A DNA stretch of 52,397 bases, taken from contig CAMBDY010000015.1 in assembly GCA_945865525.1 (NCBI GenBank), positions 1-52,397 on the forward strand, written 5' to 3'. Shown in pieces: positions 1,108 through 17,114 of the stretch. This DNA is from Nitrospira lenta. GTDB lineage: Bacteria > Nitrospirota > Nitrospiria > Nitrospirales > Nitrospiraceae. How positions within the stretch are numbered: position 1 is the stretch's first letter; every line of letters starts with the position of its first letter. Both the position numbers and the translations under genes were made by a program. Under the pieces are notes generated by a model. It saw only the letters and a list, made by a program, of their open reading frames with translations. It searched no databases and had not been told where the DNA came from.

Positions 1108-2235
1108 CTAGATTTTAATTGGCATCACGACACACTTGAACCCAGGACTCTCTGATTCCTGAATCAAACAGGGGCTTAACGGGTTGTCCATCTGCAGAGA
1201 GATCGTCTCTCCATCCATCACGCCCAGAACGTCTAGCAAATAGCGGGCATTGAACCCCGTGTTCAAGGCCTCCCCCTCGTACTGCGCCGCAAGCTCTTCC
1301 GTCGCTTCCCCGAAATCAGGACTGCTGGAGAACAAGGTCATCTGTCCTGTGGTAAACGACACTTTTACCGCGCTTGCCTTGTCACGGGACAGGACGGAAA
1401 CACGCCGGAGCGCGCTTTCCAACTCGTTACGGTTAACCCCGATCTTCCTGCCGGTTTCTTTCGGGACCACCTGCTGATAGTTGGGATAGTTTCCTTCCAT
1501 CAACCGCGAGGTCAGCAGCAGGCCGCTCTTCCGGAAGATCATGAGGTTTTTTGTAAATCCGATCAAGGGCTCGCCCTCGCCGCCTTCTTCCAACAGACGC
1601 TGCATCTCCTGCGCCGCCTTCTTTGGAATGATAGCCTTGATCTCTTGCGGAGCACCTTTGGCTCCGGCCTTTCCAAGTTCCTGCTCAGCCACCGCCAACC
1701 GATGTCCATCGGTGCCGACCAGCCGCAAGATCATTTTCTTCTCCGAGGTAATCAGGGTCACCAGCAACCCGTTGAGAATATAACGCGCGTCATTGTCCCC
1801 GGCTGCAAAAATAGTCTTCCGAATCAGTTCCAAAAATCCGGCCCCAGCGAGGGGAATGAGCCCTTCCCGTTCGATCGCTGGCAAGGCGGGATAGTCGGTG
1901 CTAGGGAGCCCCACGATCTTGAATTGGCTCTTGCCCGCTTGAATCGTCGTCCAGTTATTCTCACCCGAGGCGATCTCAATCTCACTAACCGTCAGTTCCT
2001 TAATGATCTCGTAAAGCTTTCTGGCCGAGATCGTGACCCCTCCAGCCTTCTCCACAGTGGCCTTATAGAGACCGCGCATACCGACCTCAAGGTCCGTGGC
2101 AACGATTTCCACCCCCTCCTGCTTGGCTTCGATCAAGATGTTCGAGAGGATTGGCATCGTGTTGCGTTTCTCCACGACACCTTGAACACGCTGGAGGCCC
2201 GTCAAGAGCTCAACTCGTCCCATACGCAGTTTCAT
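1108..2235 (-). CDS. dnaN: DNA polymerase III beta sliding clamp
   Basis: This is the 375-residue sliding clamp, close to the usual length of about 366. It forms the ring that tethers the replicative polymerase. The N-terminal VEKRNTMPILSNILIEA is a standard DnaN signature, and the three clamp domains follow. The C-terminus ends in VVMPIKI, typical of the last strand of the clamp (MPMRL in E. coli). An AGGGGAAAG ribosome-binding site lies about eight bases before the ATG. The gene is 25 bp downstream of dnaA on the same strand, so the two are probably cotranscribed. Confidence 0.97.
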   Translation of the reverse strand: MKLRMGRVELLTGLQRVQGVVEKRNTMPILSNILIEAKQEGVEIVATDLEVGMRGLYKATVEKAGGVTISARKLYEIIKELTVSEIEIASGENNWTTIQAGKSQFKIVGLPSTDYPALPAIEREGLIPLAGAGFLELIRKTIFAAGDNDARYILNGLLVTLITSEKKMILRLVGTDGHRLAVAEQELGKAGAKGAPQEIKAIIPKKAAQEMQRLLEEGGEGEPLIGFTKNLMIFRKSGLLLTSRLMEGNYPNYQQVVPKETGRKIGVNRNELESALRRVSVLSRDKASAVKVSFTTGQMTLFSSSPDFGEATEELAAQYEGEALNTGFNARYLLDVLGVMDGETISLQMDNPLSPCLIQESESPGFKCVVMPIKI

Positions 2236-2260
2236 AATATCTTTCCCCTTCGCGCGTGGT

Positions 2261-3598
2261 TCACCCTCGCAAGATCTGCTCCTTTAAGCTGTCCAACGTG
2301 GCACTCAATGCGCTATCGCTATCTTTTGCTTTAATGATCTGTTTACAGGCATGGATGATGGTCGTGTGATCTTTGCCCCCAAACTGCCGTCCAATTTCAG
2401 GATAGGAAGAGTCTGTAAGCTCCCGGCAGAGATACATGGCAATCTGTCTCGGATGCACAAGCATTTTACTCCGGCGACGGGACTTTAGGTCGGAAATCTT
2501 TACCTGGAAGCGCGCACCCACCGTTTCCTGAATATCGTCCATGGACACGATCTTTCTCTTGGTGCCAATCAAATCTCGGAGCACGTTCTTGGCCATCTCC
2601 AGCGTGATCGTTTGGCCGATCAGGGAAGCATAGGCACCAAGCCGTACCAGCGACCCCTCGAGCTCGCGAATATTGCTTTTCATCGTGACCGCGAGAAACT
2701 GGACTACATCTTCCGGCAACCTAACGCCTTCATCCTCAGACTTTTTCCGTAAGATGGCAACGCGGGTTTCCACGTCCGGTGTCTGGATGTCCGCGATCAG
2801 GCCCCACTCAAACCGTGACCGCAGCCGCTCCTCAATATCTGGCATGTTCTTGGGAAAGCGATCGCTCGAGAGGACCACCTGCTTGTGCGCTTCATAGAGG
2901 GCATTAAACGTGTGGAAAAATTCTTCCTGCGTCCGTTCCTTGCCGGTCAAGAATTGAATGTCATCGATCATTAACATATCTATGTGGCGGTACCGTTTTC
3001 GCAGATCCGGCATCTTGTCGTAGCGAATAGAGTTGATGACCTCGTTTGTAAACTGCTCGGTCGTCAAATAGGCAATGCGGAGATCTGTCCGTTCCGCCAC
3101 ATAATTGCCAATAGCGTTCAAGAGGTGAGTCTTTCCCAGCCCTGTTTCCCCATAGATAAAGAGCGGGTTATAGGCTTTCGTCGGCTTCTCCGCAACCGCC
3201 ATACAGGCCGCATGGGCAAACTGGTTTCCCGCGCCTACCACAAAGCTATCAAAGGTATATTTAGGATTGAGCTGGTTGCCCCGTTTGAGCCGGGCTCCAG
3301 GGGCTCGGGGGCTCACTATAGTAGATTTTCCACCCGTCTCAGGCTGGTCCGTCGATTGCTTGAGAGAGACGGCGAACGTAATTGTAGTTTCCTCACCGCC
3401 CCTAGCGGTAGAGATCGCTTCAACCAAGAGAAGCCCATAATGCTCGCCGAGCCAGTCCATGAAGAATTTATTTGGGACCCCCAGGTGAGCCTTGGAACCC
3501 TCAATTCTTTCAAGATGAATTGGCGTGAACCATGTATCGTAAGCCTGCCTTGGCACTTTGCTTTGGATATAAACCAACGCGTCTTGCCAAATAGCCAT
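2261..3598 (-). CDS. dnaA: Chromosomal replication initiator DnaA
   Basis: DnaA is the AAA+ initiator that binds DnaA boxes and opens the origin. Domain I starts MAIWQDALVYIQ, which is why I chose the start at 3598; in-frame ATG (3607) and GTG (3616) codons lie just upstream and none has a strong Shine-Dalgarno. Walker A is GETGLGKTH, Walker B is MLMIDDIQF, and the arginine-finger region is RLRSRFEWGL. The C-terminal domain IV has the DnaA signature GGKDHTTIIHACKQI, which reads the DnaA box. At about 445 residues it matches the family. It is transcribed away from the AT-rich region at 3617-3940, the likely oriC and autoregulatory leader. Confidence 0.97.
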   Translation of the reverse strand: MAIWQDALVYIQSKVPRQAYDTWFTPIHLERIEGSKAHLGVPNKFFMDWLGEHYGLLLVEAISTARGGEETTITFAVSLKQSTDQPETGGKSTIVSPRAPGARLKRGNQLNPKYTFDSFVVGAGNQFAHAACMAVAEKPTKAYNPLFIYGETGLGKTHLLNAIGNYVAERTDLRIAYLTTEQFTNEVINSIRYDKMPDLRKRYRHIDMLMIDDIQFLTGKERTQEEFFHTFNALYEAHKQVVLSSDRFPKNMPDIEERLRSRFEWGLIADIQTPDVETRVAILRKKSEDEGVRLPEDVVQFLAVTMKSNIRELEGSLVRLGAYASLIGQTITLEMAKNVLRDLIGTKRKIVSMDDIQETVGARFQVKISDLKSRRRSKMLVHPRQIAMYLCRELTDSSYPEIGRQFGGKDHTTIIHACKQIIKAKDSDSALSATLDSLKEQILRG

Positions 3599-3647
3599 AC
3601 TAGTCATTATTGCCACACCACTCTTTACTCGCAGACCTATTCATGCC

Positions 3648-6444: not shown

Positions 6445-7929
6445 ATGAGCACAGATCAACCAACCCGTCGCGTCATCGCACTGGCGCCGATGCCTCCGGA
6501 AAAATCGGCCTATGCCCTGGCCCGGTACAGCCGCTCACCGGATTCAATTGAGAGCAGCCTCCGTTGGGTCCATGGCCATTCGGCCGAAAAGTTCTGGGAC
6601 CAGTTCTACTTCGATTACGGCCATGCCTCTATTGCCGATCTGGGTCACGTTATCATCTGTTTCGAAGAGATCTCCGAACTCGCGGCGATCAAGCTTGAAG
6701 ACGAGCCCCTGTGGGACGGCCAGGCGAAGTCGAGTCGGTATCAGAACTTCATATCCGGCGCCTGGTTCGTTCCTGATTCCATCCGAGGGACTGAGACGGA
6801 GGGTACCTACCAGGGCATTCTCCGCAGCCTCGGCGAGGTCTACAAGCTCTTACACCAACCCCTGATTCAATTTATTTCGGAACGCGAACCGTGCCCTGAG
6901 TCGATGAAACCAGCTGACTATCAACGAACGATCGCCGCGCGGGCGTTTGACGTAACGCGCTATCTTCTGCCCCTTGCAGCGAAGACGAACGTCGGGCAAG
7001 TCGTGAGCATCAGGACCTTGGAGAAACAAATCACCAGACTCTTATCGTCGCAATTGCCGGAACTGCATGCGACCGGAGTCGATCTTAAGGATGCGTGCCA
7101 ACGTTCACCCCAGAATCTCTGGGGCGAACTCTGTGGTCAGCCTGGCGCGCAGGAGCCCCTTGCGCCGACGCTGGCGCGCCATGCCAAGGCGAACAGCTAT
7201 CAAGCGTCGGTTTATCTGGATCTAGCTAAATATGCGAAGGCCGCGCTCATGGGAACAGGACTGGATCAGCCGGCCTCCTGGAGCGAACCGGAACCGGTGG
7301 ACCTTATCGAGTCCCACGACCCCATCGACGAAATCGTTACGACCCTGCTGTACCGCGTCTCTCACGCGCCCTATCGGAATATCCTAGCGGTTGTCCGCAC
7401 CTGGACGGAGAAGCAGAAACAGGACACCCTCGACGTCGCCATGAGCGCGCGTGGCCCCTACGATGAACTCATTAAAGAATTCCGCAGCGGCTACGCCTTC
7501 ACGTTTGACGTGTTAATGGATATCGGGGGCTGGCGCGATATGCATCGGCACCGGCGCTGTCAGCAGATCCAGCAGAACTTTACGACGGTGCACGGCTATG
7601 ATGTCCCGCCACTGCTGGTGCAGGCGGGATTGGATCGGGAGTACCGGCAGGCAATGGACGCGGTCCGTTCAGATATCGAGCAGCTTAAGAAGATTAGCGC
7701 AGAGGGATCGCTTTACGCTACGCCTTTCGGCTTCAAGGTCCGTTGCCTTTTCAAGATGGACTATGCCGAAGCTGAGTACATTGCGCGAATCCGTTCCGGT
7801 GTGAAGGGCCACTGGTCCTACCGGACTATCGCCTGGCTGATGAAACAAAAAATCGCCACCCGCTATCCCCTGCTCGGAGATCGCATGCAGGCCACCTCGC
7901 CCGACATCGAGGACACTCTCACCAGATAG
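6445..7929 (+). CDS. Long two-part ThyX-like (FAD-dependent thymidylate synthase family) protein
   Basis: A 494-residue protein, twice the length of canonical ThyX (about 220-250). ThyX methylates dUMP using methylene-tetrahydrofolate and FAD. The N-terminal half has YGHASIADLGHV, like the ThyX GHxSxxEH element, and AKSSRYQNF, like the end of the ThyX motif (ExSxRY), but it lacks RHR. The C-terminal half has FDVLMDIGGWRDMHRHRRCQ, which carries the RHR, but the serine of RHRx7S is missing. The two halves therefore look like a duplicated ThyX fold with complementary partial motifs. A TPR gene follows 15 bp downstream in the same direction. Family membership is solid; thymidylate synthase activity is uncertain. 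Confidence 0.75.
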   Translation: MSTDQPTRRVIALAPMPPEKSAYALARYSRSPDSIESSLRWVHGHSAEKFWDQFYFDYGHASIADLGHVIICFEEISELAAIKLEDEPLWDGQAKSSRYQNFISGAWFVPDSIRGTETEGTYQGILRSLGEVYKLLHQPLIQFISEREPCPESMKPADYQRTIAARAFDVTRYLLPLAAKTNVGQVVSIRTLEKQITRLLSSQLPELHATGVDLKDACQRSPQNLWGELCGQPGAQEPLAPTLARHAKANSYQASVYLDLAKYAKAALMGTGLDQPASWSEPEPVDLIESHDPIDEIVTTLLYRVSHAPYRNILAVVRTWTEKQKQDTLDVAMSARGPYDELIKEFRSGYAFTFDVLMDIGGWRDMHRHRRCQQIQQNFTTVHGYDVPPLLVQAGLDREYRQAMDAVRSDIEQLKKISAEGSLYATPFGFKVRCLFKMDYAEAEYIARIRSGVKGHWSYRTIAWLMKQKIATRYPLLGDRMQATSPDIEDTLTR

Positions 7930-9477: not shown

Positions 9478-9747
9478 CTACAGTTCCTTAATCGCACTTT
9501 GTAGAACTGTAATCTGCGTTAATGGATCGCCGGAGGATTTGAGCTCGGCGTGGATTTGATGTTTGAGGTAGGAGGAGTAGCCCACTCGATCGACTAAGAG
9601 GGCGAGGAACCGCTCGACCGAGAGGGAGCTCTTGGCCTTGAGCTCTTCCACGGTCTCGTCGCTAACCGGTACGTAGCTACTCCCCATGTGGAACACCACA
9701 TTGTAGTAGCGGTCTTTTCCAATACGCTCAAACCGTAAACCCTTCAT
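9478..9747 (-). CDS. Hypothetical protein (89 aa)
   Basis: This protein starts MKGLRFERIGKDRYYNVVFH and looks like a compact soluble alpha/beta protein with a helical C-terminal half; no family is recognised. The ATG at 9747 is chosen because AGGAG lies six bases upstream, whereas it directly abuts the alternative ATG at 9753. It stands alone, convergent with the lipoprotein gene and about 100 bp from the end of the PII-like gene. Confidence 0.6.
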   Translation of the reverse strand: MKGLRFERIGKDRYYNVVFHMGSSYVPVSDETVEELKAKSSLSVERFLALLVDRVGYSSYLKHQIHAELKSSGDPLTQITVLQSAIKEL

Positions 9748-9850
9748 ACCCATCTCCTAGCAATGAAGAAAAACATTCTAGACAAGCAGGTCTCGGAAGA
9801 CAAGGGTGGAGCGATTGGGCCTGTTCCGCTTCCGTTTCGGATCTGTTGCG

Positions 9851-10189
9851 CTAGTTTGTGGGGGCCTTCCCGAAATATTCTTGCCGGCTGACGGCTACGT
9901 CGGTCACGAACATGACTCCGGAGTGCCGATCAAATAGCGGTCGCAGCCCTGCTAGGATGGGCTCCACTTTTTCCTCCAGAACGACCGTCATGATCATTTC
10001 GAGGCTTTCCTGCTCGCTGAACATGAAGTGAGCTTCGCGTACGCCATGATGCCCTTTGCCCGATACATTGCCGATGATCGTGTAGCCGGTCGCGTTGACC
10101 CGGTCCAGCAGATCCGTCACAAACGACCGATGTTCTCCCGCCACGATCACTCGGATCTCTTTCATCGGATGCAATATCAATCCGCCCAC
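9851..10189 (-). CDS. PII-like (SbtB/CPII-type) regulator of the carbon-uptake locus
   Basis: A 112-residue member of the PII superfamily. The core KEIRVIVAGEHRSFVTDLLD and the tail SGVMFVTDVAVSRQEYF match the ferredoxin-like PII fold. The T-loop region reads SGKGHHGVREAHFMF, resembling SbtB-type proteins (GKGSRxVR) rather than GlnB, and the tyrosine uridylylated in GlnB is missing. A GTG start is supported by GGAG about eight bases upstream. It is the last gene of the operon with dabA and two Nuo-like genes, so a role in sensing adenine nucleotides or carbon status and gating the transporter is a reasonable inference. Confidence 0.75.
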   Translation of the reverse strand: MGGLILHPMKEIRVIVAGEHRSFVTDLLDRVNATGYTIIGNVSGKGHHGVREAHFMFSEQESLEMIMTVVLEEKVEPILAGLRPLFDRHSGVMFVTDVAVSRQEYFGKAPTN

Positions 10190-10236
10190 GGTTCAGCTCC
10201 TTCCTAGGTGAATAATTCTGCTTAGAGCGCTCGCAC

Positions 10237-13200
10237 TCAAAAGCCGCTTCCGGAATCGACTTTAGCCCACTCGCCGGTCGGGCGATACTGATAGAGGATT
10301 CCCTCTTCTGGCTCCAGCACGACGAGGTGGACCCACTCGTTATGATAGAACTGCCGCAACACTTCATGCCGTGCGATGAGCTTTTCGATCCATTCGCGCG
10401 GCGCTTCAATCACGGACAGGAGCCGCATTGGCTCATGGTACGGCACGTCTCCGTTCATAACGGTCTGCTGGGCGAGCCCGAGCCGGAGGTCGCTCCAGGG
10501 ACCGGACATAATGCCGACCCGTCCCACGACATTATGGTAGATCTTGCTCCCGCTACCATAGGCCTCATTATCCACCGTGGAAAAATAATGTTCCATATTG
10601 ATCCACTGAGCCACGACTTGCGGCCCGATCATCAGCACCTCAAGTAAGTGGCCGCCAGGATCTTCGCGATAGTCGTACGATTGTAGAAAGACGCGTCCAC
10701 CCAGATCGACCCCTTTGGTCAAGTCTCGTCGGCCGATTACGAGGGACGCGTTGCTTGACAGACCCCATTCTGGTCGCACCTGGCTCCAGTCCGCGCTTCG
10801 GCGGTGCACATGCGCGATCGACTCAGGGATTGGTAGCGGTTCGGTGAGATCGGGAAAGCGGGAGCAGCGTTCCAGGCTCGTGCGGCGAGAGGCTTCGTTG
10901 AGGTCGTGGATTAGCCGCGCGATATCCGCGCAGTGTGCTGGCGGTGCATCCTCCAAGTCGAACAGCTGGACCTCATCGGTGGTGGTGTCGACCTGGCCAG
11001 CCAGGAAGTGCGTGTCGGACGGAATCACGAGGCCGGTTTTCGCCAGGCGCTCTCGTACTTTTTGATTGTTGGCCATCATGGCGAGCAGGCGCGCGTTGGG
11101 TTTGCCTTCGTTGCCTCCGCAGGCCCCGCAGTCCAAGGCGGATTCGAAGGGGTTATTCTCTGACGTGCTGCCGTGTGCGCAGAATAGGACAAGGCGGGCA
11201 AACTGACGCGTGAGGCCCATCATCCGCAAGGCCGTGCCCACTGTTAAGATCTGTTCGTCGAGCGTAAGGCCGGTGCGTGTGATCCGCTCCTTTTTCCGAG
11301 ACGCCGAGCGTTGAGTGATCGCATACCGTTGCCGTAAGGTGGTCACGAACCTATTGAGGGTTTCCCCTGAGAGCTTGGACGGAGTTGCAACGGAGAGGAG
11401 CGCCGCATCCGGCGCACTTTTATCGCTCAATGCCCATTGCCGCAAGGCCTCGACCAGTGCCAGCGTGATTTGAGAACTGCGCAAGCTGGTGCACTCCTGG
11501 AGCGCTTGCCTGATGGTGGTCTGTTGTTCGGCCATCAACATTTCGGCGGTTTCGGTCGGCGCCAGCTTATCGACGGTGAGGGTCGTTGCAATCGACGGAA
11601 CGAAGAGGCGCTGGAGCCAGCTGGTCAAGCGGCCGTGAAGCGTAGGCAGGAACGTTTTCCCGATGATCGGGAAACCATAGAACCAGCCCACCGACTCCGC
11701 CATTACGTAGGGCGTGACAACGTTCTCTTTCAGATCATGCAGTAGTGTATGCCCGGCATAGACCATTCTGGTCCGGGCCGTATGCTTCGAAACAACAGGA
11801 TCGTGATAGCTGCGGGGGATTTCGCGCACCTCGTTCTTGGCGCGCATGATGACGGGGAACTGTTCCGTGTCATGCTCCTTGCCCCAGGCGCGATAGCGGA
11901 TGAAGGCGGCGAAGAAGCCGGCGAACCCGTAGGTGCCGTTCGCGCCACTGAGTTCGAGATGCCGCCGGAAGGGTTCGGAGCGGACATCCATGCAGAACAC
12001 TGTTTGCGAATGGAGCCGTTCGAGTCCCGGTTCGACGTTCAATGGGGGCTGCGCGGCCGGTGATCGGGCGAGCGCTCCGAGGAGTTGTTCCTGATAGCCG
12101 GATTCGAAGGCCTTGAGCCAGACCGGTCCATGGTCCGATTCGGGGAAGGCTTTCATCCACTCGACGAGGCAGGCGAGTTTGTCCGGTGCCGTGGTCATCA
12201 ACGTGGCCGGATCGAGTTGGAGCGCCAGCGCGAGGGACCGCAACTGCTTGGCGGCGCCATGGCGTGCGACGCGGAGCTGGCGGGGCGCGACGTCCAACTG
12301 ATAACGCTCGTACAATTTGTCCCAGCCTTGCGCGCGTTGATGCTGCAGCCGGTCGACTTCTTCCGCATAGATTGCGGGAAGCCGGCTGGCAGCCCGTTCC
12401 CGACGCAGGAAATATTCTTTGGAGCGCTGCCGCATATAGTCGGTCACGGACTGGTACGTACCCGCGATACCAAGTTCCTGCTGGCAGGTTTGTTGAACTA
12501 GCTCACGCACATACCAGAGACGGATCGCGAGATACTCGACGGCTTCAACCGGATAGGCTTGTTGCCATTCGTAATCGCACTTTTCCGAACGCCATTTAAT
12601 GAAACCGGTCCATCCCGGCAGCGCCGTGAGCTGGAGCGAGAGATAATCCTGCCGCAGATCTTCGGGAATGCCGAGCGCGTCCAGACTTTCCAGCACCGCA
12701 TCTTCGGGATAGTTGGGGAGGCTAGCAATTTTTCGTTTGCTATCGGAAATCCCACAGGGCGACCATTCATGGGCCGCGAGGGCTTTCCAGGCTAGGTACA
12801 AACCCTGTTCCCGTTCCGGCATGGCCCAGGTGGCATGGCCTTCGTCGAGGAACCCTCCACACCACTTAATCAGTTCGTGGTTGATCCGGTCGACGATGGC
12901 GGAGCCCAGCACCTGATCGCACCAATGTGAGAGCGTCATCAATCGGCCGAGCGATGCTTGGGCGCAGGAGACCAGGCCCCGCACGCGCTCGTCCACATCG
13001 GGGCTGGGCAATACCGCTTCCAACCGATTGGCGATTGCGACATCTAGCTGGTAGTAGGGATCGTGCTCCCATCGCGCATCCAACGGTTCCTCGACGGGCG
13101 TACAGAGGCCTTCGGCAAGACAAGCGCAGAGGACTTCGCCGTGGGACACGCGATGCAATCCGATCGTCGTGTATTCGTCGCGCGCCAGCGGAGCCACAGC

Positions 13201-13467
13201 CGTTTCCATGTGGCGAGATTGAATCCGGCCGGAACGGAGATAGTGGCGATAGAACTCGCTGGGGAGATAGCCGTTTCCACCGAGAAATTGTTTTCCTCGG
13301 ATGACAGTTTCTTTGAAGGGAAGATATTCGAGGTTATGGAGCGGATTGTGATGCACGAAGGTTCGCATCGGCCAATATTGGGCGACGACTTCGCTGGCGA
13401 GGTGAATCACGCCTCGGAGTCCCATGCGTCTAGTTTCGATGTTGGCGAATGGGGTTAGCGATTCCAC
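10237..13467 (-). CDS. dabA: DabA-type inorganic-carbon transporter subunit (DUF2309)
   Basis: A 1076-residue DUF2309 protein. DabA has a beta-carbonic-anhydrase-like zinc site and works with a Nuo-like membrane subunit (DabB) to hydrate CO2 vectorially and accumulate bicarbonate. The expected ligands are visible: C492 and D494 in FCMDVRSEPFRRH, H765 in LFCAHGS, and C780 in LDCGACGGN. The 15-residue H-to-C spacing equals that reported for Halothiobacillus DabA, but this protein is about 250 residues longer, with a larger gap between the D and H ligands. The GTG start overlaps the preceding NuoM-like gene by 13 bp, with GGAG upstream. The PII-like gene follows after 47 bp. Confidence 0.92.
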   Translation of the reverse strand: MESLTPFANIETRRMGLRGVIHLASEVVAQYWPMRTFVHHNPLHNLEYLPFKETVIRGKQFLGGNGYLPSEFYRHYLRSGRIQSRHMETAVAPLARDEYTTIGLHRVSHGEVLCACLAEGLCTPVEEPLDARWEHDPYYQLDVAIANRLEAVLPSPDVDERVRGLVSCAQASLGRLMTLSHWCDQVLGSAIVDRINHELIKWCGGFLDEGHATWAMPEREQGLYLAWKALAAHEWSPCGISDSKRKIASLPNYPEDAVLESLDALGIPEDLRQDYLSLQLTALPGWTGFIKWRSEKCDYEWQQAYPVEAVEYLAIRLWYVRELVQQTCQQELGIAGTYQSVTDYMRQRSKEYFLRRERAASRLPAIYAEEVDRLQHQRAQGWDKLYERYQLDVAPRQLRVARHGAAKQLRSLALALQLDPATLMTTAPDKLACLVEWMKAFPESDHGPVWLKAFESGYQEQLLGALARSPAAQPPLNVEPGLERLHSQTVFCMDVRSEPFRRHLELSGANGTYGFAGFFAAFIRYRAWGKEHDTEQFPVIMRAKNEVREIPRSYHDPVVSKHTARTRMVYAGHTLLHDLKENVVTPYVMAESVGWFYGFPIIGKTFLPTLHGRLTSWLQRLFVPSIATTLTVDKLAPTETAEMLMAEQQTTIRQALQECTSLRSSQITLALVEALRQWALSDKSAPDAALLSVATPSKLSGETLNRFVTTLRQRYAITQRSASRKKERITRTGLTLDEQILTVGTALRMMGLTRQFARLVLFCAHGSTSENNPFESALDCGACGGNEGKPNARLLAMMANNQKVRERLAKTGLVIPSDTHFLAGQVDTTTDEVQLFDLEDAPPAHCADIARLIHDLNEASRRTSLERCSRFPDLTEPLPIPESIAHVHRRSADWSQVRPEWGLSSNASLVIGRRDLTKGVDLGGRVFLQSYDYREDPGGHLLEVLMIGPQVVAQWINMEHYFSTVDNEAYGSGSKIYHNVVGRVGIMSGPWSDLRLGLAQQTVMNGDVPYHEPMRLLSVIEAPREWIEKLIARHEVLRQFYHNEWVHLVVLEPEEGILYQYRPTGEWAKVDSGSGF

Positions 13468-14765
13468 GAGACTGGCTCCATGATGGCTCCGGTGCCGCTG
13501 ATTCGCGGCGCCCCTTCGAATAGATTGGTTGGTGCGAGACCCAAAGCGAACATGATTATCACTACGATCAGGAGGGCGGCGAATTCGGACTGACGCACAT
13601 CCTCATAGCGGAGCTCTAGACGTTTGTGGCCGAAGAGCAGCCCTTGCACCAGATCGAGGATGTACCACGATGCCGCGAGCCAGGCGATGGCGACAACAAA
13701 GGGGGCGATCGAGAGGGTCATCGGCAATGCGAAGAGTAACCCCATGAAGCCGGCGAAGACCCCAAAGGGAGGCAGCCCCATCGCGGCCAAGGCCAGAAGA
13801 GAAATCAGCACGGCAAACTGCGGCATCTGCGCAGCTAGGCCGCTGATAGCTCGCGGATCCACATCGTCGCCGTAGCGTGTCCGGATTACCTGCCAGGCGA
13901 GGAGGAGTCCAGCAGTTACGAGGGATAGGCTGCCCAGGAAGACCGCGCTCTGAGGGCTGACATTCCGCGAGGTGGCTACGAACCACCAGAGGAGCGAGAA
14001 GAAGGACAGGCTGCCATAGGCGAGGAGCAGCCGCACGCGCGACTGCGCCAGCGCTTTGATCGCTCCATAGAGGGCGCCCGATAAAGCCAAGACGATCACC
14101 GGCAAGGTTTCAAATTCCGATATGGCAGGGATTAGCGCAGCAAGCTTGTGCAACCCGATCGCGGGGAGCAATAACACGGTGAAGGGGGAGAGGCTGCCGG
14201 GCAATCGTGTGAGTGCCGCCACGTAGCCATAGTGGAAAGGGATCAACGGCAGCAGGATCATGCAGGCCAGTAGCGAGGGGATGGCCGAGTTTGTCATGGC
14301 GGCAATTCCCGCGCACAGCGTTCCCAGCCCGTAGGTTCCAATACCCACCCAGGAGGGGCCCCAGAAGGGATCGTGATGCCAATAGAGCACGAACGTGATA
14401 AGGCCAAGGAGCAGCGTGAGGGCAATTGCGCCGATAGGGGACGGGAGTGTGAGAATGCCCAAGCCCATTCCTAGAAACACTAAGGTCCCGACCCATGCCA
14501 GGCGATGGTCCTGGTGCACTGGCTGTCCTAGGAGCGAGACAGAGGCGGCCAGTGGAAGGAGCAGGACGAAGAGCAGTCCCTCGGTCGACCCTGTTAGCGT
14601 CAAGAAGCTCACAATGACGGCGAGCAGACTCCCCAAGGTCACGGTGACGGACCAGGCCTTCAATTTCTCAGGCTGAGACCAGACCGCGACGCCCAACAGC
14701 GCGCCCAGCAGGGGAACCGCGACTACGAGCCAGGGAGTAAGCATCGAGTTGATCATTCCGACCAT
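13455..14765 (-). CDS. NuoM-like proton-translocating membrane subunit of the Dab locus
   Basis: A 436-residue polytopic membrane protein, about 12 or more hydrophobic segments. Short NuoM/MrpD-like signatures are PLIPFHYGYVAALTR, RLLLAYGSLSF and GLPPFGVFAGF. It is shorter than NuoM (about 500). Placed between the NuoL-like subunit and DabA, it probably contributes to an ion-driven energy module for carbon uptake. It overlaps its upstream neighbour by 13 bp; an ATGA-coupled start at 14756 is an alternative. The exact ion and whether it binds DabA directly cannot be read from the sequence. Confidence 0.8.
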   Translation of the reverse strand: MVGMINSMLTPWLVVAVPLLGALLGVAVWSQPEKLKAWSVTVTLGSLLAVIVSFLTLTGSTEGLLFVLLLPLAASVSLLGQPVHQDHRLAWVGTLVFLGMGLGILTLPSPIGAIALTLLLGLITFVLYWHHDPFWGPSWVGIGTYGLGTLCAGIAAMTNSAIPSLLACMILLPLIPFHYGYVAALTRLPGSLSPFTVLLLPAIGLHKLAALIPAISEFETLPVIVLALSGALYGAIKALAQSRVRLLLAYGSLSFFSLLWWFVATSRNVSPQSAVFLGSLSLVTAGLLLAWQVIRTRYGDDVDPRAISGLAAQMPQFAVLISLLALAAMGLPPFGVFAGFMGLLFALPMTLSIAPFVVAIAWLAASWYILDLVQGLLFGHKRLELRYEDVRQSEFAALLIVVIIMFALGLAPTNLFEGAPRISGTGAIMEPVSWNR

Positions 14766-16453
14766 CTCGCATTGCGCTTGTCGATGCGGTGGATGAGACG
14801 CATGGCCGCTTTCCCTAGCGTCTGGTAGAGCTCATCCATATACAGTTGGTTCATGACGACGACATACAGGCGAATGCGCAGCCTCTCGACCCATTTCGGC
14901 ATCCACATCGTCTGGTCATGGGCACGCATGTACAGATAGCCCCAACTGAGCACCGTCAGAAGGGTGGCGATGATGACCATGCTGTCGAAGAGCCAGTTCG
15001 GTAGGGCTGCAGCCTGGAAGTACGACGCGACCTCTACCGGATTCGGATAGAGGAAGGTGGTGAAGGACTCGATAACGAAGAGATAGACGAAGACGACGAA
15101 GAGCAGGGTGAACAGCATCGCCGTAGAAACTTTCCAAGAGGCGATGGCGCGTAACCGCGTGAGCGTCAAGATCGCCTGAGACGAGGTGATCCAGATAAAG
15201 AACAGAAAGATTACGGTCCCTTGAGATTCAAGCAAGGGAATGTGGAGCACTCCATGCGTCACCAAGAGAATAAGGAGCGGAATGAAAAGCGTGGTCACGA
15301 ATCCCGTCGACCAGGTCAGGGAGGAAAATTCTTTTGCTTCTTCTTGAAGGGATGCATGGGGGGATTTCGGATCTTGACGGGCCTTGTGAATGACGTTTCC
15401 GCAACTCAAGAACATGGTCGCTTTGAAGAGGCCGTGTGCGATCAGGTGAAAGATGGCCAGCGAAAAGGCGCCTAGGCCGCACTCCATAATCATGTAACCC
15501 ATCTGGCCAATCGTTGAGAATCCCAGTGTCTTTTTAATGTCGTTTTGGGCCAGCATCATGGTGGCGCCCAGGATCGTAGTCAGAACGCCGATCACGAGCG
15601 CCACATGCAGCGTGGTTGAGCTGAGACCATAGAGTGGTGCCAGGCGGTTGATCAGGAAGCCGCCCGCATTGATAATGCCAGCGTGAAGCAATGCAGTAAC
15701 CGGCGTGGGCGCATAGAGCGACCGTGGCAGCCAAACATGTAGCGGAAATTGCGCGGACTTGCTCATCCCACCGATGAACAATAAGAGCGTGACGGCTGTC
15801 GGCCCACTGATTTCGAGGCCCGGCCAGGGTGACAGCGCGACGGGCATGTCGGCGGCCCTGTCGAACAGGGTTTGAAATTCGAGCGTCCCATATAACTGGT
15901 AGGCGAGCACGGTGCCCGAGAGAAACGCGACATCGCCAACTCGTAACAGGGTAAAGGTTTTAAACGCGCCGTCGAGCGTTGCCGCATGGGCATGGTTATG
16001 GGCGAGCAGATAGAGCATGTAGCTCACGACCTGCCAGAACAGGAACAGCATCATCAAATTCGCGCTGGACACCATGCACAGCAACACGCTGATCGTGAAG
16101 CCGATGAGGGCCAAATATCGCCGATCGTGAGGGTCCTGGTACATGTAGCCAATTGAGTAGGTGTAGATGATTGTTCCGACACCGGAGATCAGCACCATCA
16201 TGACGGCGCTTAAGCGATCGACATAGAATCCGATGGGGAATACTAGGGTGACCGGGGAGGCAGGATCGTAGAACCGGAGAGTGATGGGCCCTTGTGTGGC
16301 TACCCACCAGAGTGTGGCGATGGCGCCGAGAAAGGCTCCGCCGATGGGGTAGGCCGCCATCTTGGCGCGTTCCTGTTGTGAGTGTTTGTCACCCACTAGG
16401 ACGAGGAGCGCCGCGAGTAGCGGAAGCAACGGCACGAGAATCACCAACGACAT
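14753..16453 (-). CDS. dabB: DabB-like (NuoL/MrpA-family) membrane subunit
   Basis: A 566-residue integral membrane protein of the proton_antipo_M family. It opens MSLVILVPLLPLLAALLVLV. Family hallmarks are GTIIYTYSIGYM, the MLLFLFWQ-like segment LMMLFLFWQVVSYMLY, and the core AQFPLHVWLPRSLYAPTPVTALLHAG, which is nearly canonical for NuoL. DabB proteins are NuoL relatives that supply cation-driven energy to DabA. The start at 16453 is preferred because AGAGG lies about seven bases upstream; a longer frame reaches 16483. It is the first gene of the four-gene operon. No NADH-binding or quinone-module genes accompany it, which argues against complex I. Confidence 0.85.
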   Translation of the reverse strand: MSLVILVPLLPLLAALLVLVGDKHSQQERAKMAAYPIGGAFLGAIATLWWVATQGPITLRFYDPASPVTLVFPIGFYVDRLSAVMMVLISGVGTIIYTYSIGYMYQDPHDRRYLALIGFTISVLLCMVSSANLMMLFLFWQVVSYMLYLLAHNHAHAATLDGAFKTFTLLRVGDVAFLSGTVLAYQLYGTLEFQTLFDRAADMPVALSPWPGLEISGPTAVTLLLFIGGMSKSAQFPLHVWLPRSLYAPTPVTALLHAGIINAGGFLINRLAPLYGLSSTTLHVALVIGVLTTILGATMMLAQNDIKKTLGFSTIGQMGYMIMECGLGAFSLAIFHLIAHGLFKATMFLSCGNVIHKARQDPKSPHASLQEEAKEFSSLTWSTGFVTTLFIPLLILLVTHGVLHIPLLESQGTVIFLFFIWITSSQAILTLTRLRAIASWKVSTAMLFTLLFVVFVYLFVIESFTTFLYPNPVEVASYFQAAALPNWLFDSMVIIATLLTVLSWGYLYMRAHDQTMWMPKWVERLRIRLYVVVMNQLYMDELYQTLGKAAMRLIHRIDKRNARWSE

Positions 16454-17114
16454 ACCGTACCTCTCACTCTTCGACGCACACACGACGCCTCGTGCGGGGC
16501 GTCGGTCACGACAGAGTCCGCGGTGTCTTCGTGCACCCTCATCGATATCACCGAGTATGCGGAATCAAAAAAGCCAGTAGGCGCGCATCGAATGTCAGAT
16601 GTAGCAGGATTCCGGACACAAACGCAAAGAATTTTTGGGTCTAGCGGCACAAGAACATTGGGGCCGCCCGCATGGGCCCTTTGTCCCATTTGCATGGGAA
16701 AACAGGGGAAAGTAACAGCGGGATTATGCTGAGAATTGGCTCGTCTCATTAGCCCTGCTTGTCTCAAGGTTTCCATGATCCGTCTTGCAGGAGTAGGCCG
16801 CAGCGTACTGGTATGGCCCCCGTGAAATGAGCCATGGAACGAGAGGTTATGCACAACGCGATCAGGAAGGCAGTCATCAAATTTGAGTAGGGTTTCATGG
16901 GACGGCGACCAACGGATGTGAGAGCGTTCATCATCCGGGATATGGCGGTCGTTCGACATAAAGGCATCCTGGCCTAGGCCGAATGTTAGCTGGTCAAGAA
17001 GGATCGCTTGTCTTCGTGACCGAGCTTGCCAGGCATCCCCTGTGCTGGCTTGCGGCGAAGCTATCTCCTGATCCGGCGATGGCGATTCTTGTTCATACCA
17101 TGCTAAAAAGAGGG
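16454..17114. other. Long intergenic region between dab operon and selO
   Basis: About 660 bp separate the divergent dab operon and selO. I see no convincing gene. A hairpin with a perfect six-base stem (GACGCC/GGCGTC) lies at 16484-16503, just before the first dab gene, where it would be in the 5' leader. The region must hold the promoters of both operons. An open frame on the minus strand covers it but lacks family resemblance and has biased, non-protein-like composition. Confidence 0.5.

Follow-up and report, generated by a model that had tools for sequence, protein, structure and literature searches.

Which complex is encoded by the four intact genes that lie head to tail on the minus strand (16453-9851) of the window, the 52,397-nucleotide stretch of Nitrospira DNA analysed here, and what does it do for its host? 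The genes follow each other in the order NuoL-like, NuoM-like, DabA and PII-like. The preliminary description took them for a Dab operon, an assignment borne out by the Pfam families of the products and by the intact zinc ligands of DabA. The operon quite probably encodes a DAB1-type energy-coupled carbonic anhydrase (CA) or pump, which would supply bicarbonate to an autotroph using the reverse TCA (rTCA) cycle; its activity and proton coupling are assigned by analogy with published work on DAB2 and DAB1.

The NuoL-like protein matched PF00361 (165 bits) and PF00662 (51 bits), DabA matched PF10070 (861 bits) and the PII-like protein PF00543 (78 bits), all far over the cut-off. The PF00361 match of the NuoM-like protein was weaker (46 bits), still over the cut-off, and confined to the C-terminal part. 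The genes had been described as joined by 13-bp overlaps. This is true of the first two junctions, where dabB and the NuoM-like gene (14753-14765) and the NuoM-like gene and dabA (13455-13467) overlap by exactly 13 bp, and the same overlaps recur in the sister genomes G001, G011 and G016. A gap of 47 bp, in contrast, separates DabA from PII, and an AGGAG motif lies upstream of the PII GTG start. Comparison with sister species yielded dN/dS values of 0.03-0.19 for all four genes, which argues for purifying selection on each of them; the PII gene was the most constrained (0.03-0.05). A stray fragment of complex I was also considered, but there was no other nuo gene among the scanned neighbours and the features of DabA and DabB speak against it. 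Elsewhere in the window dnaN adjoins dnaA (1111-3616, minus strand), thus a replication origin may be near. The plus strand carries a 494-aa ThyX-family protein (6445-7929, PF02511), which is long for a flavin-dependent thymidylate synthase and was covered by the match in part.

Features of the dab locus and of the adjoining divergent region
Feature	Position	Strand	Remarks
DabB (NuoL-like)	14753..16453	-	566 aa from ATG 16453; ORF open to GTG 16483
NuoM-like middle subunit	13455..14765	-	436 aa; PF00361 match in C-terminal part
DabA, long type	10237..13467	-	1076 aa; PF10070 861 bits
PII-like protein, CPII type	9851..10189	-	112 aa; PF00543
mpsC pseudogene, 5' remnant, divergent from dabB	16813..17004	+	PF10057 match with 3 TAG
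beta-CA deletion scar, ~40 bp of CA 3' end left	16996..17037	+	DNA alignments to G001, G011

In the alignment with DabA2 of the Halothiobacillus neapolitanus DAB2 complex (9rd0_A), residues C492, D494, R496, H765 and C780 of the window DabA are the counterparts of the zinc site and the Asp-Arg dyad, and all five were invariant among eight compared DabA sequences. The PF10070 protein thus has the features looked for in a DAB/DAC catalytic subunit, Cys2His zinc ligands (C492, H765, C780) together with D494/R496. The numbering C492/D494/H765/C780 given in the preliminary description was correct. In DAB2 the finger residue E444 is essential; its equivalent, located through the alignment of the Nitrobacter protein to 9rd0_A, is the invariant E591. 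The window DabA has a long branch, and departs from the seven other sequences at 11 of the 220 columns that are invariant among them. Two of the deviating positions, M493 and A590, adjoin catalytic residues. The deviations may reflect mild relaxation or adaptation.

DabB aligns end to end with DabB2 (9rd0_B). The proton-path residues K242, H267, K317, H346, H350 and K354 are kept, and so is the pair R181/D184. At the position of NuoL E144 there is Q151; the absence of Glu is shared with DAB2, which has Ile. A NuoL-type DabB with proton-path residues and without Glu at NuoL 144 is what was looked for in a DAB/DAC complex. The DabA zinc site, the finger glutamate and the DabB proton path are therefore common to DAB2 (9rd0) and the window operon. 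DAB2 differs by consisting of two subunits only, and by a DabA that is about 250 residues shorter.

The preliminary description had held that characterised DAB pumps contain a single DabB, which would make the additional Nuo-like subunit exceptional. This does not hold: dabB1 and dabA1 of H. neapolitanus DAB1 are separated by a PF00361 gene and followed by a gene for PII (PMC4633670, PMC13144422, PMC7714395). In the published description the H. neapolitanus locus begins with nuoL, continues with genes for a putative transmembrane protein and for a DUF2309 protein of 1046 aa, and ends with a PII/SbtB homologue (PMC4633670). Flamholz et al. assigned the interstitial gene to PF00361 ('mrpA family') and found that dabAB1, tested together with it, rescues E. 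coli devoid of CA (PMC7714395). DAB1 is a three-subunit complex according to a structure paper from 2026 (PMC13144422), and nuoL-ybcC (DUF2309)-PII operons had already been noted in the 2017 COGNAT study (PMC5700660). The window operon, which matches the published DAB1-type order nuoL, PF00361 membrane gene, DUF2309 and PII, has the layout of a known type, and the second Nuo-like subunit is not a novelty.

The four-gene order is the same as in H. neapolitanus DAB1 (hneap_0909 encoding DabB1, 0908, 0907 encoding DabA1, and PII/SbtB), and both DabA proteins are long (1046 aa in DAB1, 1076 aa in the window). The protein encoded by hneap_0908 has been called small, whereas the middle protein of the window has 436 aa, a comparison made by description only. 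DAB1 of H. neapolitanus sits in an expanded carboxysome locus of a Calvin-cycle host; in the genome carrying the window neither RuBisCO nor shell genes were found. Plasmid 1 of Nitrobacter hamburgensis X14 carries two dab copies, in which NuoL, a membrane protein, DUF2309 (1037 aa) and PII follow each other as in the window. Unlike the window operon, they adjoin RuBisCO, and their middle protein has just 253 aa. In hhalign this protein matched the middle protein of the window (probability 91%, E 1e-6) over the C-terminal half of the latter only; pairwise BLAST between the two produced no match. A plasmid search with the middle protein of the window returned one partial match only, annotated as NuoM.

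What, then, is the middle subunit? In profile comparison its C-terminal 254 residues aligned with residues 228-490 of E. coli NuoM (E 4e-11). Structure modelling from 13 close sequences gave a pLDDT of just 53.5, whereas 42 homologues yielded a good model (pLDDT 87.5, pTM 0.89). The latter matched NuoM/ND4 from end to end (best Z 38, with 405 residues superposed at an rmsd of 2.8 A), and Foldseek also returned the NuoM/ND4 fold. The residues of a working NuoM-type proton channel were looked for in the same 42 homologues. E144, K234, K265, H348 and E407 of NuoM are missing in every one of them, K234 being replaced by Leu or Phe and K265 by Pro or Leu, and H322 is missing in 40. Since the channel residues are absent, the middle subunit is unlikely to be a second canonical pump. 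The loss of every tested channel residue suggests that it probably serves as a scaffold next to DabB or as a platform for regulation.

Conservation of the gene order among relatives, proposed earlier as a check, was confirmed. DabA was found in 176 of the 196 Nitrospirales genomes searched; three genomes of the same genus are without it. A search of genome contigs with a profile of the Nitrospira middle gene yielded 73 loci, all labelled Nitrospira(e) or relatives except for one 'Nitrosospira' record, and did not reach H. neapolitanus. The middle gene lies immediately 5' of dabA in all 73 loci. PII comes next in 59, and in the remaining 14 the contig is too short. Upstream sequence was sufficient in 58 loci: 30 have a tandem DabB pair and 28 one or a partial DabB. 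With such a pair in front of the NuoM-like gene, as in L058, L060, L063, L065 and L069, the operon comprises five genes, three of them for antiporter-like subunits. The order also holds in a second Nitrospirales family, where the middle protein is divergent and 358-441 aa long; in one locus of this family (L071, 5243-6479) the middle gene is split into overlapping frames of 300 and 168 aa, by a frameshift or a sequencing error. In another DabA clade, from the same genus and family, the genes run DabB-DabA-PII and the middle one is lacking. The constant association in the 73 loci, set against the clade that lacks the gene, indicates that the middle gene goes constantly with its own clade of DabA and not with every Dab.

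The only PDB relatives of the PII protein were the 5d4n/5d4l/5drk group (E 2e-32, 50% identity over 101 residues), which we take to be CPII. As this group alone matched, the nearest solved PII proteins are of the CPII type. CPII has been described from bacteria with carboxysomes, a feature in which its hosts differ from the genome analysed here; the binding of adenylates and bicarbonate that marks a CPII protein is putative for the window protein. The CPII-type protein would probably gate the pump according to the adenylate or bicarbonate state. Starting 97 bp past the PII gene, the minus strand has a 91-aa ORF (9478-9753) without a Pfam or NCBIfam match. Over 20 other Nitrospira dab loci have it at 76-89% identity, and it may thus be another conserved neighbour.

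The host genome (1.80 Mb, 39 contigs, 99.7% complete) has a single DabA match. Its closest named relatives are the Nitrospirae/Nitrospira MAGs Baikal-G1, ZH-03apr19 and LacPavin, which suggests a lake lineage. ATP-citrate lyase, a marker of the rTCA cycle, is present. Neither RuBisCO (PF00016) nor the BMC shell family (PF00936), the components looked for as signs of a carboxysome-based CO2-concentrating mechanism, was found in the host genome, and control genomes were positive. A search for ammonia monooxygenase was uninformative, as no control genome matched. The proposal that the operon concentrates carbon for the rTCA cycle without carboxysomes thus held as to the marker of the cycle and the lack of detectable RuBisCO and shell genes, but 'concentration' is too strong a word. 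CO2 is the substrate of the main carboxylases of the rTCA cycle, pyruvate and 2-oxoglutarate:ferredoxin oxidoreductases, and for this reason the pump is more likely to feed carboxylases that use bicarbonate than to concentrate carbon for the cycle. A review from 2024 deals with inorganic-carbon transporters in rTCA Nitrospirae (PMC10880623).

The region divergent from dabB has decayed. In three sister genomes (G001, G011 and G003) it holds first an intact mpsC (PF10057), then a beta-CA gene and then selO, and mpsC is linked to the operon in most Nitrospira relatives. In the window mpsC is represented only by a stop-bearing remnant, and the beta-CA gene by a scar. The second very small genome, G016 (1.7 Mb), is also without mpsC and CA; the CA may have been lost once or twice in the two genomes, the key nodes of the tree having values of only 42-63. 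No beta-CA, alpha-CA or SulP was found in the host genome, with positive control genomes, in a search whose CA part comprised two Pfam families (alpha-CA and beta-CA). With beta-CA deleted, and alpha-CA, beta-CA and SulP not found, the pump may be the main source of bicarbonate.

By analogy with DAB2, CO2 would diffuse into the cell and be hydrated at the buried zinc site of DabA. Protons would enter through DabB, whose outer half-channel the DabA finger (E591) is predicted to complete, and their entry would drive hydration one way to bicarbonate. The NuoM-like protein would be the third membrane subunit, retaining the antiporter fold and not the proton path. Since the host seems to run the rTCA cycle and to have neither RuBisCO nor a carboxysome, the likeliest consumers of the bicarbonate would be the carboxylases that take it as substrate: pyruvate or PEP carboxylase, acetyl-CoA carboxylase and PurK.

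A different chemistry has been proposed for the MpsAB proteins of Staphylococcus aureus, an organism that has no CA and relies on them (PMC8567241). Their subunits are homologous to DabB and DabA, sodium use has been argued for them, and the linkage of mpsC in most Nitrospira relatives recalls MpsABC; the published descriptions that we compared mention neither a middle subunit nor PII. That the window complex is likewise a Na+/bicarbonate symporter, and not a proton-driven CO2 hydratase, is nevertheless unlikely. The zinc site of DabA is complete and the proton path of DabB is kept, DAB2 is active without sodium and does not rescue a sodium-sensitive strain, and in the window, unlike in MpsABC, mpsC is broken while the operon is still under selection. 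An outward ion pump driven by an exergonic DabA reaction was proposed in 2017, before the DAB work (PMC5700660), and a redox device was proposed for the Leptospirillum 'och' operon from a CXXC motif (PMC9080137). We regard either role, in place of carbon uptake, as very improbable: in DAB2 the CXXC motif region supplies C539, a zinc ligand of the carbonic-anhydrase-like site, and C780, its equivalent in the window, is invariant, as are the other ligands.

There is also the suggestion, made in the COGNAT study, that more membrane subunits move more ions (PMC5700660). Applied to the window, it would make the NuoM-like protein a second ion pump, and the complex would move more ions per CO2 than DAB2. 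The complete NuoM fold agrees with this, and relatives even have two DabB genes. The uniform loss of the five channel residues, and the near-uniform loss of H322, make such a pump highly unlikely. Our preferred reading is a DAB1-type hydratase driven by protons that would enter through DabB. Tentatively, and with more doubt than conviction, this can be extended to the history of the lineage: a DAB1 complex whose NuoM-fold subunit does not conduct might, in streamlined Nitrospira of lakes, have replaced CA as the only bicarbonate supply of an rTCA autotroph, and the predicted conflict between CA and pump might have been resolved by deletion of the CA.

The four-gene operon is now documented in two Nitrospirales families, and the unnamed middle gene of DAB1-type operons gains a predicted fold and a testable role, that of a NuoM-like protein without a proton path. 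The interest of the locus rests mainly on this lost path and on the natural CA deletion, the latter being the most interesting. A cytoplasmic CA would short-circuit a bicarbonate pump, which raises the question of a futile cycle in autotrophs (PMC10880623); the deletion of CA beside an intact pump bears on this question, here in an autotroph that does not use the Calvin cycle.
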